A stretch of DNA of 33,944 nucleotides from a virus: positions 1 through 33,944 of IMG/VR virus record IMGVR_UViG_3300038825_000273. One strand, 5' to 3'. This document shows, one piece after another, positions 11,405 through 14,994 of the stretch; within the stretch, counting starts at the first letter, position 1, and every line of letters begins with the position of its first letter. Both the position numbers and the translations under genes were made by a program. Below the pieces are notes generated by a model, which was not told where the DNA came from, ran no database searches, and saw only the letters and a list, made by a program, of their open reading frames with translations.

Positions 11405-13786
11405 TTAAAATATATCTTCGTTATTATCTTCCCATTTATTAGCTTCGTCTATCATTACAAAATACCTAGAGCTATCCCTTCTTTTATCTAAAGTGTACCC
11501 TTTTAAGTTGCACCACTTTTGCACCCATAATAAAAAAGCTCTACCAGATAGATTAGTAAATTCTTTATATTCTTTTATAAACTCCTCTTTCTTTTCTGTA
11601 TTATAATATTTTACATTTGGCTTTAAGTTTCCATCCTCTATCCAGTCGTAAAAATCTTTGCTAGTGCTTTGTATAAATCTTTTGACGTCTGCATTAATTG
11701 ATACTGTGCTAGTCAATCCATTAATTAAAAACTTTTGAAGGTTGTTAATCATGTAATTGTCAAAGCTCACCCACTCGTTAGAATCCCACTCATCAAATAA
11801 CAGCTTACCATATTCATCTAGTGGAGTATGATTACCGTTAAAGAATTGATTAAACTCTATTTCGTGCCTCCTCCTATCGTGCGAATTACCAGCTCCATCT
11901 ATTACGTAGTTAGTAGTTATTATAACTTTCGGAGAGCGTTCAAATGGAATAAATATTTCATCTTTGTTTTTTCTATTTACTGTTATCCCTTCTGTAATTA
12001 AGCTAAATAAGTTCTCGAAATTAAAGTTCTTTTTTACGTCATCAAATGCTAGAGTTTGCGTGTCAATATCTACCCTTTGATATACAAAGTCAGAGCGAGA
12101 AGGGTCGAAACTTTTACCATCTATTTTGACTACTTTCTTAAAATAACCTATTGCAGTCAACATTAAACTTTTACCACTCCCCCCATTCGGGTCGTCGTTT
12201 ATCTCTTGGTCGTTTAATATTATAGCTTTTTGGTCTGTCTTATCTTTAAAGCTGTGCATTAAATAACCTATCGTATTTTCTAGTGAGTCCTTTCTATCCT
12301 TGTTATTATCTGAAACTTTGGAAACTAAGTCCTTAAAGTCGTTATCAATATCTTTGCTTTTGTTAAAATCTCTTTTTATTATTTGGTTTTCCCAGATGTA
12401 ACCATCTATATCCACGTAGTCAATTAACTCTATACTTTTTTTAGTTACCTCAACTACTCCATTAGAATAATATATGAACGAATTATCTTTAGTATCCTGT
12501 AACATCTTTAAGTCAATACTATCTAACATATTAAGGTATGAATCTTTAAAAAACTTCACAGAGCTAGTAAGATAGTTCCAAACATCCCACAGCTTTAAAT
12601 CCTCTACGTAGTCTAGTACAAAGTCTTTCATTTTTTCTACGCTAGAATTGGAAACTATATTCGATTTTACCCTAACAAAAATCGGAGTTTCTGACTTCTC
12701 GGCATAGTACTTAAAAAATCCTTTCGACTGTAGGAATATTTTAAAATCTGCATTGTTAATATTTACTTTTGTTACTCCTTGCTTATTAACGGATATACTC
12801 CAAAAATTCTCTATTGTTTCTTTTATCTCTGATATTATCTTATCTGCTTCTAATGGCTGCACTCTTTTTAATAGCTCCTCCTTTACTTCTATTTTACTAA
12901 CTCCATTGGATAGCTTTCTCTTTACATCTGTTATGGCTTTTGCATCTTCGAAATACTTTGTTTTAAAATCTCCTACTTTAGAGTAAGCGCTTCTATTTAT
13001 ATTGGTTACTTCATTAATCTTATTAGATAGATTGAATTGAGTTATCATGTAATCAATAGAGGTAGACTGATGTACTCCATAAGTATTAAAAGCAGAAGCT
13101 AGGATAAACAAATTATTATTTATTTGTCCTTCTATTATTCCGTATTTTGACTCCCACCATTTCATAACTAAAGATATTATTCTAGCTTCATCGTTTACTG
13201 GAATAGTTGGCACTCTTTCAATATAGTTATATCCTTCTTTTACTTCTATTTTATCCCACAGCTCAGAATCTTTATTAATATAAATATCACTATCATAAGA
13301 CTCATAGCATATTCTACTCACATTTTTATTTGCAGCATCAAAATACTTACTATTAAAATGCTTTTTTAATTCATTAAAATAAAGAGGATGTTCTTCTTTT
13401 GTGCATTTGGGTATTTTCACCAATGCTTTTAAGCCATTACCCGAAGGAGAAACGAAAACAGAATAAATATACTTATCTTTTTTTAATAGTTCTTTTTGTT
13501 CTTTTAAAACCTTTTTACTTTCAAAATTATCAAAATCTAAAACACAATAACCCGAATGATTAACTAAGCTGTTATCATTCCTAGAGCTGAACTCTCCATT
13601 AAACAAAACACAAATACATTTCTCTTTTAGTTTGTTTCTTTTCTCTTTATTAGATTCCTTTCTAATCTTTTGAATAAGCTCTTTAGACTTTCCTATTTTA
13701 ACTCTTTCCAGAGCTTGGTCTATTGTAATATAAAAAGCTACTCCTTTAGAATCAAATAAACTTTTATAAACTGTTATTTTCTCCAT
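11405..13786 (-). CDS. Primase-helicase with VirE-N type domain, 793 aa
   Basis: Likely the main replication enzyme. The N-terminal 190 residues match the BT4734/VirE-N type (archaeo-eukaryotic-primase-like) with HSGYCVLDFDNF (77-88), SPSGNGLKALVKI (113-125) and NVSRICYESYDSDIYIN (155-171); D84, D86 and H77 are candidate active-site residues. After a linker comes an SF3/D5-like helicase: Walker A GGSGKS (535-540), Walker B LAFDD (579-583), sensor ITTNY (623-627) and RRR (638-640). Such proteins are typical of Bacteroidota and their phages. The gene is preceded by a structured leader and a long non-coding gap (see those entries) and is followed by helicase/nuclease genes. Confidence 0.88.
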   Translation of the reverse strand: MEKITVYKSLFDSKGVAFYITIDQALERVKIGKSKELIQKIRKESNKEKRNKLKEKCICVLFNGEFSSRNDNSLVNHSGYCVLDFDNFESKKVLKEQKELLKKDKYIYSVFVSPSGNGLKALVKIPKCTKEEHPLYFNELKKHFNSKYFDAANKNVSRICYESYDSDIYINKDSELWDKIEVKEGYNYIERVPTIPVNDEARIISLVMKWWESKYGIIEGQINNNLFILASAFNTYGVHQSTSIDYMITQFNLSNKINEVTNINRSAYSKVGDFKTKYFEDAKAITDVKRKLSNGVSKIEVKEELLKRVQPLEADKIISEIKETIENFWSISVNKQGVTKVNINNADFKIFLQSKGFFKYYAEKSETPIFVRVKSNIVSNSSVEKMKDFVLDYVEDLKLWDVWNYLTSSVKFFKDSYLNMLDSIDLKMLQDTKDNSFIYYSNGVVEVTKKSIELIDYVDIDGYIWENQIIKRDFNKSKDIDNDFKDLVSKVSDNNKDRKDSLENTIGYLMHSFKDKTDQKAIILNDQEINDDPNGGSGKSLMLTAIGYFKKVVKIDGKSFDPSRSDFVYQRVDIDTQTLAFDDVKKNFNFENLFSLITEGITVNRKNKDEIFIPFERSPKVIITTNYVIDGAGNSHDRRRHEIEFNQFFNGNHTPLDEYGKLLFDEWDSNEWVSFDNYMINNLQKFLINGLTSTVSINADVKRFIQSTSKDFYDWIEDGNLKPNVKYYNTEKKEEFIKEYKEFTNLSGRAFLLWVQKWCNLKGYTLDKRRDSSRYFVMIDEANKWEDNNEDIF

Positions 13787-13798
13787 ATTATTTAAAAT

Positions 13799-13883
13799 AA
13801 AAAATCCCTATCAAAGTAGCCACATAGGATAGGCATTCTAAGATAAGGATTTTTAACAATGTTTGTGAGTTCCTATGTCACTT
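13799..13883 (-). promoter_or_regulatory. Structured leader / attenuator-like RNA of the primase-helicase gene
   Basis: In the transcript from the box at 13890, the arm at 13842-13854 pairs with 13800-13812 in a 13-bp stem (one G-U) whose 3' side runs directly into a T-rich tract 12 nt before the ATG, like an intrinsic terminator. An earlier segment (13871-13878) is perfectly complementary over 8 nt to 13822-13829, which lies inside the loop, so a competing fold is available. This is the layout of an attenuator or riboswitch-like switch; the ligand or trigger is unknown. Confidence 0.55.
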
Positions 13884-14139
13884 GAAGCACAAATATAATA
13901 CTTTTTTTTAACATAAAATACTTTCCGCGCTTTATTTTTATTTACGTCGATTCATTTTTTAAAGTGACGTGCCTACATCCTTTGATAGCATTAGCTTTTA
14001 AAATATTTACGTCACTTCGTCGTAGATTTGCAGAAAAAAATATTTTAGTTGTAACTTTCACTTTATGAAAATCTCTCATAGGCAAAAAAAAGTGACGAAG
14101 CGCGGATTTGTAGGAAACATAGGGTCTAAGAGTACGACG
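13808..14139. other. Repeat-rich intergenic region, candidate replication origin / operator cluster
   Basis: The longest non-coding stretch in the genome (13787-14214, 428 bp) lies between the SSB gene and the primase-helicase gene, close to a DnaA-like gene. It holds several inverted word pairs: AAGTGACG at 13962 and 14090 against CGTCACTT at 14010, with GTCACTT also at 13877; TCCGCGCTT at 13924 against AAGCGCGGA at 14098; CTATCAAAG at 13808 against CTTTGATAG at 13980; CGTCGTA at 14018 against TACGACG at 14133. I see no open frame of useful length and no standard DnaA box. Confidence 0.5.
13890..13900 (-). promoter_or_regulatory. Promoter-like box TATTATATTTG
   Basis: Copy of the 11-nt TAKTATATTTG word, reading toward the primase-helicase gene about 100 nt away. 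A start just downstream would give a leader containing the attenuator-like fold. Confidence 0.6.
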
Positions 14140-14141
14140 AT

Positions 14142-14171
14142 AAAAAAAAGGGAACTCAATTAAGAACTCCC
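14142..14171 (-). terminator. Intrinsic terminator after the SSB gene
   Basis: On the coding strand GGGAGTTC and GAGTTCCC form an 8-bp stem (two G-U pairs) around a TTAATT loop (14150-14171), extended by AAAA/TTTT and followed by eight T residues (14142-14149). It ends the SSB transcript 44 nt after the stop codon. Confidence 0.85.
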
Positions 14172-14214
14172 TTTTCTACTATACCCATTATTTAAAAATA
14201 AATCTATTACCTTC

Positions 14215-14556
14215 CTAAAAGGGTAAGTCATCCTCTGTCGTAGCTTGTACAGTCTCTTGCGCTGTAGCCTGAGCATCGTCTTTTGTGCATCTCCAAGACT
14301 GCAAAGTCGTGTAGTATTTGCCTTTCCACTCATTAGTATTCACATTAAATTTTACGCTTACCTTATCACCCACTTTGTTAAACTTTCTAAACATTGTACT
14401 AGCATCCTTGCCGAATACTTCAAACGCGTAAAGATTATTGTACTGTTCTTCTGTGGTTAGTGTGTAGGTTAACTTTTGCCAGTTGTCTCCTGCCTTGTTT
14501 ACTCCTTCTACTGTTTCGCCTATTGTTTCAATAGTTCCTTTTACTTCTAATTCCAT
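14215..14556 (-). CDS. ssb: Single-stranded DNA-binding protein (DUF3127-like OB fold), 113 aa
   Basis: Residues 1-95 form an OB-like core: ELEVKGTIETIGETVEGVNKAG, then an AFEVFGKDA segment, KVGDKVSVKFNVNTNEWKGKYYTTLQSWR. This follows the DUF3127 pattern, a family common in Bacteroidota. After a threonine/alanine/glutamine-rich linker the protein ends in the acidic tip EDDLPF, the feature by which bacterial SSBs recruit partner enzymes. It would coat replication and recombination intermediates. The gene forms its own unit between a promoter-like box (14581-14591) and a strong terminator (14142-14171), suggesting high, independent expression. Confidence 0.88.
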   Translation of the reverse strand: MELEVKGTIETIGETVEGVNKAGDNWQKLTYTLTTEEQYNNLYAFEVFGKDASTMFRKFNKVGDKVSVKFNVNTNEWKGKYYTTLQSWRCTKDDAQATAQETVQATTEDDLPF

Positions 14557-14595: not shown

Positions 14596-14994
14596 TTATC
14601 TATATAAGTCCATTAGTTTAGTACATAGTTCATTGTGATAGTTTCTATATTCTTTGTCTACTTCTATTAATCCTTTTATTTTACTAATAGAATGCAAAGC
14701 TGTTGCATGATCTAAGTCGAATACTTGCCCAATCTCTGTCAGGGTTATTCTTCTAACTTCGCGCCTTAAAAAGTATGCAGTAAATTGTTTAGCTCTTATT
14801 ATCTGAGCTTGTCTATTCTTTGCCTTAATCTTTTCTAGTGGCACATCAAAATATGCAAATATTATTCTGCATATATTGTCTATATGTTTATCGTGATTTA
14901 AATACATTTGTTTGTGTTTTCTGTAGAGTTCTTCGTCTACTGTTCTTAAATAGGCTTTAATTCCTTTGTCCGTTAAATAGTGGGCTTGATACAT
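14596..14994 (-). CDS. DnaA domain IV-like DNA-binding protein, 132 aa
   Basis: The second half (about residues 63-130: QIIRAKQFTAYFLRREVRRI, TLTEIGQVFDLDHATALHSISKIKGLI) carries the DnaA C-terminal helix-turn-helix and the signature DHATALHSISKI, equivalent to the DHSTVIHA-type motif that reads DnaA boxes. The AAA+ ATPase of true DnaA is absent, and the first 60 residues are an unrelated helical region. Such stand-alone domain IV proteins occur in Bacteroidota phages. It could mark the phage origin or interfere with host initiation. It lies near the repeat-rich gap that I propose as origin. Confidence 0.85.
   Translation of the reverse strand: MYQAHYLTDKGIKAYLRTVDEELYRKHKQMYLNHDKHIDNICRIIFAYFDVPLEKIKAKNRQAQIIRAKQFTAYFLRREVRRITLTEIGQVFDLDHATALHSISKIKGLIEVDKEYRNYHNELCTKLMDLYR

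Follow-up and report, generated by a model that had tools for sequence, protein, structure and literature searches.

Replication of phage P4 involves two iteron clusters, ori and, at a distance from it, crr. Among the described systems closest to the locus analysed here, the SaPI Rep helicase recognises its iterons through a C-terminal domain. The related D5-type helicase Cch2 of SCCmec uses its C-terminal domain to bind the origin and requires the iteron AAGTG for unwinding (PMC7581432). P4 alpha has a winged helix that binds the origin repeats (PMC4234260). With regard to RNA, a 109 bp candidate, HMP2_4078, was reported near phage D5_N genes in Bacteroidetes (PMC8040213). The locus described here carries, in our judgement rather likely, an iteron-type origin bound by the neighbouring primase-helicase together with an attenuator-like leader of the same gene.

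The window, i.e., the whole stretch of 33,944 nucleotides that was analysed, is a complete circular phage genome with a 99-nt terminal repeat, and its minus strand carries all real genes. Phage records searched for DNA similarity gave no match. An earlier note on this DNA had pointed to the largest non-coding gap, and the interval 13787-14214 is indeed the largest between ORFs, flanked by the genes for an SSB-like protein (DUF3127) and a primase-helicase, with a DnaA domain IV-like gene situated one gene further upstream than the SSB-like gene. Read along the minus strand, the gap consists of the SSB gene's terminator-like hairpin (14171-14142), a repeat block (approximately 14140-13924), a promoter (13897-13890), and a 103-nt leader followed by the primase-helicase start codon. 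A promoter and terminator scan with the sigma-70 consensus, which is unsuited to Bacteroidota, found neither element. The cumulative GC skew, suggested previously as a check on the origin, turned out to be monotone with all real genes on one strand, and for this reason it is uninformative and speaks neither for nor against an origin at this place. The elements of the region are the following, where "box" denotes a copy of AAGTGACG and L numbers denote loci from other genomes:

14596-14994, minus strand: DnaA domain IV-like gene (E 1e-14), not the determinant of the box word
14215-14556, minus strand: SSB-like gene (DUF3127)
14142-14171, minus strand: terminator-like hairpin that follows the SSB-like gene, GGGAGTTCTTAATTGAGTTCCC and next T8, from the sequence
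14098-14106, plus strand: AAGCGCGGA, a possible degenerate box or secondary repeat, altered in L005
14090-14097, plus strand: box 1, AAGTGACG, followed by AAGCGCGGA; altered in L004 and L005
14018-14089, no strand: AT-rich stretch from box 1 to box 2, at most 78% AT (at 14027-14076), a candidate unwinding element
14010-14017, minus strand: box 2, AAGTGACG, inverted; invariant in the window and five relatives
13962-13969, plus strand: box 3, AAGTGACG; altered in L003 and L005
13924-13932, minus strand: inverted copy of AAGCGCGGA; L005 has AAAGTGACG at this position
13890-13897, minus strand: -7 element TATATTTG of a Bacteroidota-type promoter (TAnnTTTG), from the sequence; same place in relatives
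11405-13786, minus strand: primase-helicase, the proposed initiator (Pfam, PHROGs, AlphaFold, Foldseek)
11408-11725, minus strand: C-terminal winged-helix domain, residues 688-793, the proposed box reader (AlphaFold model, core pLDDT approximately 95)

The repeat block, located at approximately 13924-14140, includes the only GTGACG copies of the genome, namely the three AAGTGACG boxes; these are the only clear boxes in the window, and two of them are altered in close relatives. GTGACG occurs three times in the genome, AAGCGCGG twice, and CCGCGC twice, with every copy inside the gap. Repeated GC-containing 8-mers numbered 11 in the gap against a mean of 1.15 in shuffles (none of 1000 reached 11). 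Since 19 of 314 other 428-nt segments of the genome also reach 11, this count is weak by itself, and conservation weighs more. The gap was compared with those of five close relatives, at 97–99% identity. The AT-rich stretch between boxes 1 and 2 lies in the same place in relatives. In L005 (1880-2349), two AAGTGACG boxes are gone and a new AAAGTGACG appears where the others carry AAAGCGCGG, a loss and gain that, at the level of sequence, looks like binding-site turnover. The inverted words listed in the earlier note all recur where it had placed them, but rather than forming one array they divide between two devices and a set of chance pairs. The pairs CTTTGATAG/CTATCAAAG and CGTCGTA/TACGACG were rejected as functional words and attributed to chance because they are present in the window only, the five close relatives carrying GATAGCAAAG or GATAGCGAAG in the first case and CTATCGACG or CTATCGTCG in the second. 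The pair ACATAGG/CCTATGT, formerly counted among the words of the candidate origin or operator array, corresponds to the pairing of two hairpin loops of the leader RNA and not to an operator.

Of the primase-helicase relatives recovered by searching, 157 have a usable start, and many of these were found by eye to carry an array in the same place and with a similar layout, composed of one or more boxes, an AT-rich stretch of approximately 65–100 nt, an inverted box, approximately 40 nt of spacing, one to three further boxes, and the promoter. The box words include GTGTACC, GTGCCC, GTGTACT, GTGTTGC, GTGACG, GTGACA, and GTGGAA, among others, and in most of them GTG stands between an A/T-rich flank and a tail that varies ([A/T]GTG and variable bases). 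Several of the window's nearest relatives, at 50–54% identity, share the word CGTCAC/GTGACG. The earlier description of a candidate origin or operator array suits the repeat block, whose layout and box type recur before the same gene in distant relatives; the stretch 13808-13889 is a structured RNA leader that had been overlooked. Two other observations concern these loci. In L065:3204-3863 and L069:3204-3866, a gene resembling those of GIY-YIG-type endonucleases separates the array from the promoter of the primase leader, and relatives of the primase-helicase in L162 (Pedobacter sp. L105) and L185 (Tenacibaculum) are located on large bacterial contigs, probably as prophages.

The box word tracks the primase-helicase and not the DnaA-like protein. 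In the 83 pairs of loci that share the primase but not the DnaA-like protein, the computed overlap of enriched words averaged 0.62; it was 0.04 in the 11 pairs that share the DnaA-like protein but not the primase, and 0.03 where the loci are unrelated and both proteins differ. Natural swaps illustrate this pattern. In L036/L055 and L040/L064, the DnaA-like proteins are 96% identical, the primases 49–50%, and the box word differs; the DnaA-like gene and the terminator are near letter-identical, and the array changes directly after the terminator, in agreement with the primase type. A third swap is L014/L088, with 91% identity between the DnaA-like proteins and 38% between the primases. Between L034 and L037, primase identity is 87% over the body but only 66% over the last 115 residues, and the two loci have different box words. 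The tracking is a correlation, to which linkage could contribute in part, given that the array adjoins the primase gene.

The primase-helicase itself (BT4734-like_N, phrog_28855) bears the Walker A sequence PNGGSGKS and the motif FDDVKKNFNFE, and the model of the whole protein matched the folds of the SaPI5 primase-helicase, AsfvPrimPol, and viral D5-type enzymes, so that a fused primase and SF3 (D5-like) helicase is encoded beside the candidate origin. AlphaFold predicts a C-terminal domain of topology H-H-E-H-H-E-E, i.e., a winged helix. Foldseek alone gave no significant match for this domain, and the VIA-align matches include the P4 origin-binding domain 1KA8 with a Z of 5.5 and an rmsd of 2.6 over 69 residues, a middling score within the common-fold range for a fold that is itself common. 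Judging from these models, the predicted winged helix is the likely binder of the boxes.

The earlier note had suggested the DnaA domain IV-like protein as the binder. Such a gene lies upstream in 109 of the 157 relatives, and the DnaA-like protein of the window retains the DHxT motif. However, the word does not follow this protein in the natural swaps; GTGAC boxes persist in the same gap of L045, L047, L065, and L069, although no DnaA domain IV gene was detected in the 39–40 kb records of these loci or of L050; and no DnaA box (TTATNCACA) with fewer than 2 mismatches was found in the gap, which makes binding by the DnaA-like protein very improbable. A different explanation would treat the array as an operator only, at which the primase-helicase or another protein represses the promoter, with replication starting elsewhere. 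The boxes are indeed situated directly upstream of the promoter, and those of L009, L011, and L163 lie within 100 nt of the primase start codon. Nevertheless, boxes placed around an AT-rich stretch, together with an initiator-type enzyme that has a winged helix, suit the origins of P4, SaPI, and SCC better, and the genome bears no other GTGACG cluster; we regard a purely operator role as unlikely.

As the word follows the primase-helicase and this enzyme has a predicted P4-like winged helix, the best reading of the repeat block, on comparison with relatives, is an iteron origin of the P4/SaPI type that may double as an operator and would be bound by the phage's own primase-helicase. Similar to SaPI Rep and SCCmec Cch2, the locus combines a D5-like helicase, a C-terminal DNA-binding domain (predicted here), short iterons, and a candidate origin adjacent to the gene, and the Cch2 iteron AAGTG (PMC7581432) matches the core of the window box. 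In contrast to SaPI and SCC elements, in which the origin is downstream of the rep gene, the array is upstream of the gene, a leader RNA lies between the candidate origin and the gene, and the carrier is a Bacteroidota phage rather than a staphylococcal island. Likewise, P4 alpha resembles our enzyme in being a single protein with primase, helicase, and winged-helix domains (the fold match to 1KA8 is predicted here). P4 alpha differs in its primase, which is of the bacterial (TOPRIM) type, whereas ours has a BT4734-like N-terminus, and the window has one array, a second GTGACG cluster being absent from the genome. Because the candidate origin is upstream of the gene and we infer both its binding and its firing, we do not claim full membership in the P4/SaPI/SCC origin class. 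In the proposed mechanism, the primase-helicase would grip the GTG-type boxes via its C-terminal winged helix, the SF3 helicase would assemble on both sides of the AT-rich stretch, and the enzyme would open this stretch and then prime. Binding of the array by the primase-helicase could also couple replication to its expression.

Regarding the segment between the promoter and the gene, folding and scanning revealed these elements:

13787-13889, minus strand: structured leader RNA of the primase-helicase gene (interleaved stems and U tract, covariance model R2, family covariation)
13865-13881, minus strand: hairpin P0, GUGA (13881-13878) with UCAC (13868-13865); its loop is arm A, CAUAGGA (13877-13871)
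13794-13854, minus strand: terminator-like stem B, AAAAAUCCUUAUC (13854-13842) with GAUAGGGAUUUUU (13812-13800), then UAUUUU
13819-13834, minus strand: hairpin P3, GCC with GGC; its loop is arm A', UCCUAUG (13829-13823), complementary to A

The arms are interleaved in the 5' to 3' order P0(A), first strand of B, P3(A'), second strand of B, and the U-rich run, which stops 7 nt before the primase-helicase start codon. A stable hairpin and a U tract thus stand between promoter and start codon, as in an intrinsic-terminator attenuator. Covariance model R2 matched 13791-13895 with 23.3 bits, a weak match (E = 6.5e-4 within the gap and 0.42 in 277 kb), and model R1 gave no match to this leader. On the basis of this weak match together with every structural element in common, the window leader is taken as a diverged member of the leader-RNA family. 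Its stems hardly vary in the closest relatives, and so the evidence for the leader comes from distant kin. Folding of the growing transcript, modelled as secondary structure only, without kinetics or a loop-loop term, suggests that a long helix including A with A' forms first and that the complete terminator hairpin then wins.

In the family, 22 of the 105 distinct leaders of the primase-helicase gene passed a rule-based scan for interleaved stems with a U tract and 83 failed it, most relatives of the gene being without this leader; of 2100 shuffles, none passed. A covariance model made from P0 and B alone, with A/A' left out, was combined with a DNA pattern scan and yielded 46 strong matches across 80 loci, of which a few had been known before. 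The structure is borne out by strong covariation. For P0 and B, pairing reaches 98% and the covariation score is 0.78 versus 0.23 in shuffles (0 of 500), and A pairs with A' over 7–8 exact bp in all 28 distinct RNAs (mean 7.9; 4.9 when partners were exchanged). Conservation of the unpaired letters partly reflects the selection of matches, because the scan pattern fixed some of these letters; it left the arms free. Approximately 10 nt separate the end of the RNA from the gene that follows, and the genes in this position are those for DnaD-like loaders, DUF6291 proteins, primases, a methyltransferase, and the BT4734-like_N primase-helicase, as well as short first ORFs. Many Bacteroidota phages carry this architecture before replication genes, including the cultured Cellulophaga phage phi19:3 and Flavobacterium elemo phages. 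In phi19:3 (L315:4886-5000), the leader RNA is situated before gp007 (DUF6291-like), and the DnaA-like gp013 is upstream.

At gathering thresholds, Rfam 15 matched neither the window nor any of 20 related loci, permissive thresholds gave chance-level matches only, and no description of the RNA was found in the open literature, to which the search was confined. HMP2_4078 shares with the leader its occurrence in Bacteroidetes and the vicinity of phage D5_N genes; compared by description only, it differs in being palindromic and without a predicted terminator (PMC8040213). A separate group of leaders, designated class II, was observed upstream of the primase in L013-L042, L054-L064, L122, L152, and L159-L161. 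These have the form GGGG..GUCGGAGGCAUCCAC..AAAAGG-loop-CCUUU..CCCC with a U tract, and a stretch beyond this tract pairs with the loop over 6–9 bp in 25 leaders (mostly 4–6 when partners were exchanged). Class II was set aside as a different RNA with its own pairing.

Homing endonuclease genes were considered as the source of the leader, which would then have arrived with them and be a leftover of such an insertion. A control scan upstream of 1026 other genes gave 11 matches, of which three correspond to the same primase in duplicate loci; all of the remaining eight precede HNH, GIY-YIG, or similar-looking small genes, six of these being inserted between leader and primase. L101, L096, and L098 have neither leader nor HNH gene, and L095, L103, and L105 have both. 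The calls were made by eye, except for L105 (Pfam HNH_3 and NUMOD4). Small genes of the HNH/NUMOD4 type or similar lie between the leader and the primase start in L045, L052, L095, L103, L105, L108, L022, and L027. The same RNA, however, precedes many replication genes with no endonuclease gene, and the leader is conserved in the window group, which has none; the endonuclease origin was dropped because the RNA is found before replication genes, and we consider it improbable.

Changes in the arms bear on two further explanations. ElemoC and elemoE, which share one host, have the same DNA for at least 60 nt upstream of the leader, and the leader itself is strongly different with the fold kept; elemoA_2-5C has yet other arms. 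Arms also differ among L045, L047, L065, and L069, whose primases are similar. The loci of the elemo phages of one host with different arms between near-identical flanks are L316:4622-4760, L317:3733-3866, and L324:781-950. Drift constrained by the structure and selection favouring divergence of co-infecting phages could each account for such change. Together with the position of both pairing partners in hairpin loops, it would fit a trans-acting RNA similar to the P4 CI RNA of immunity, a short terminated transcript with a phage-specific loop acting on related phages in the same cell. Against this, the leader is almost absent from 249 Flavobacteriaceae genomes, so it is not mainly a prophage element, and no integrase was found among the window proteins scanned, which were part of the ORFs. 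Those genomes gave five matches, of which L310 alone is convincing; L311-L314, from the same genomes, and L309 were rejected by eye as ordinary terminators. We hold a trans-acting role to be quite unlikely, and give similarly little weight to a fast-diversifying identity RNA, whose loop-loop pairing, in cis or between molecules, would tie each replication operon to its own RNA.

The leader probably works as an attenuator of the primase-helicase gene, given the loop-loop pairing around a terminator-like hairpin just before the start codon. Like the intrinsic-terminator attenuators of phage and bacterial leaders, it comprises a promoter, a folded leader, a terminator-like hairpin, and a U tract before the start codon; unlike known attenuators, it shows P0–P3 loop-loop pairing and phage-specific arms and has no Rfam 15 match. 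Termination and its control are what we infer from this structure. Transcription of the primase-helicase gene would start at TATATTTG and run into the folded leader, where P0 and P3 would pair via their loops (A with A') around hairpin B. The balance of the two folds would set the amount of primase-helicase, and early synthesis of the initiator would be limited until something favours read-through.

With this locus, a large group of uncultured Bacteroidota phages gains a concrete and testable candidate origin, and the natural swaps point to the DNA-reading domain of the primase-helicase. The leader represents a widespread structured RNA before phage replication genes that is without an Rfam 15 family. 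If it were an identity RNA after all, a phage could, by way of its short terminated transcript, switch replication off or on in close relatives that occupy the same cell. Its occurrence in cultured phages (phi19:3 and the elemo phages) makes its function directly testable.
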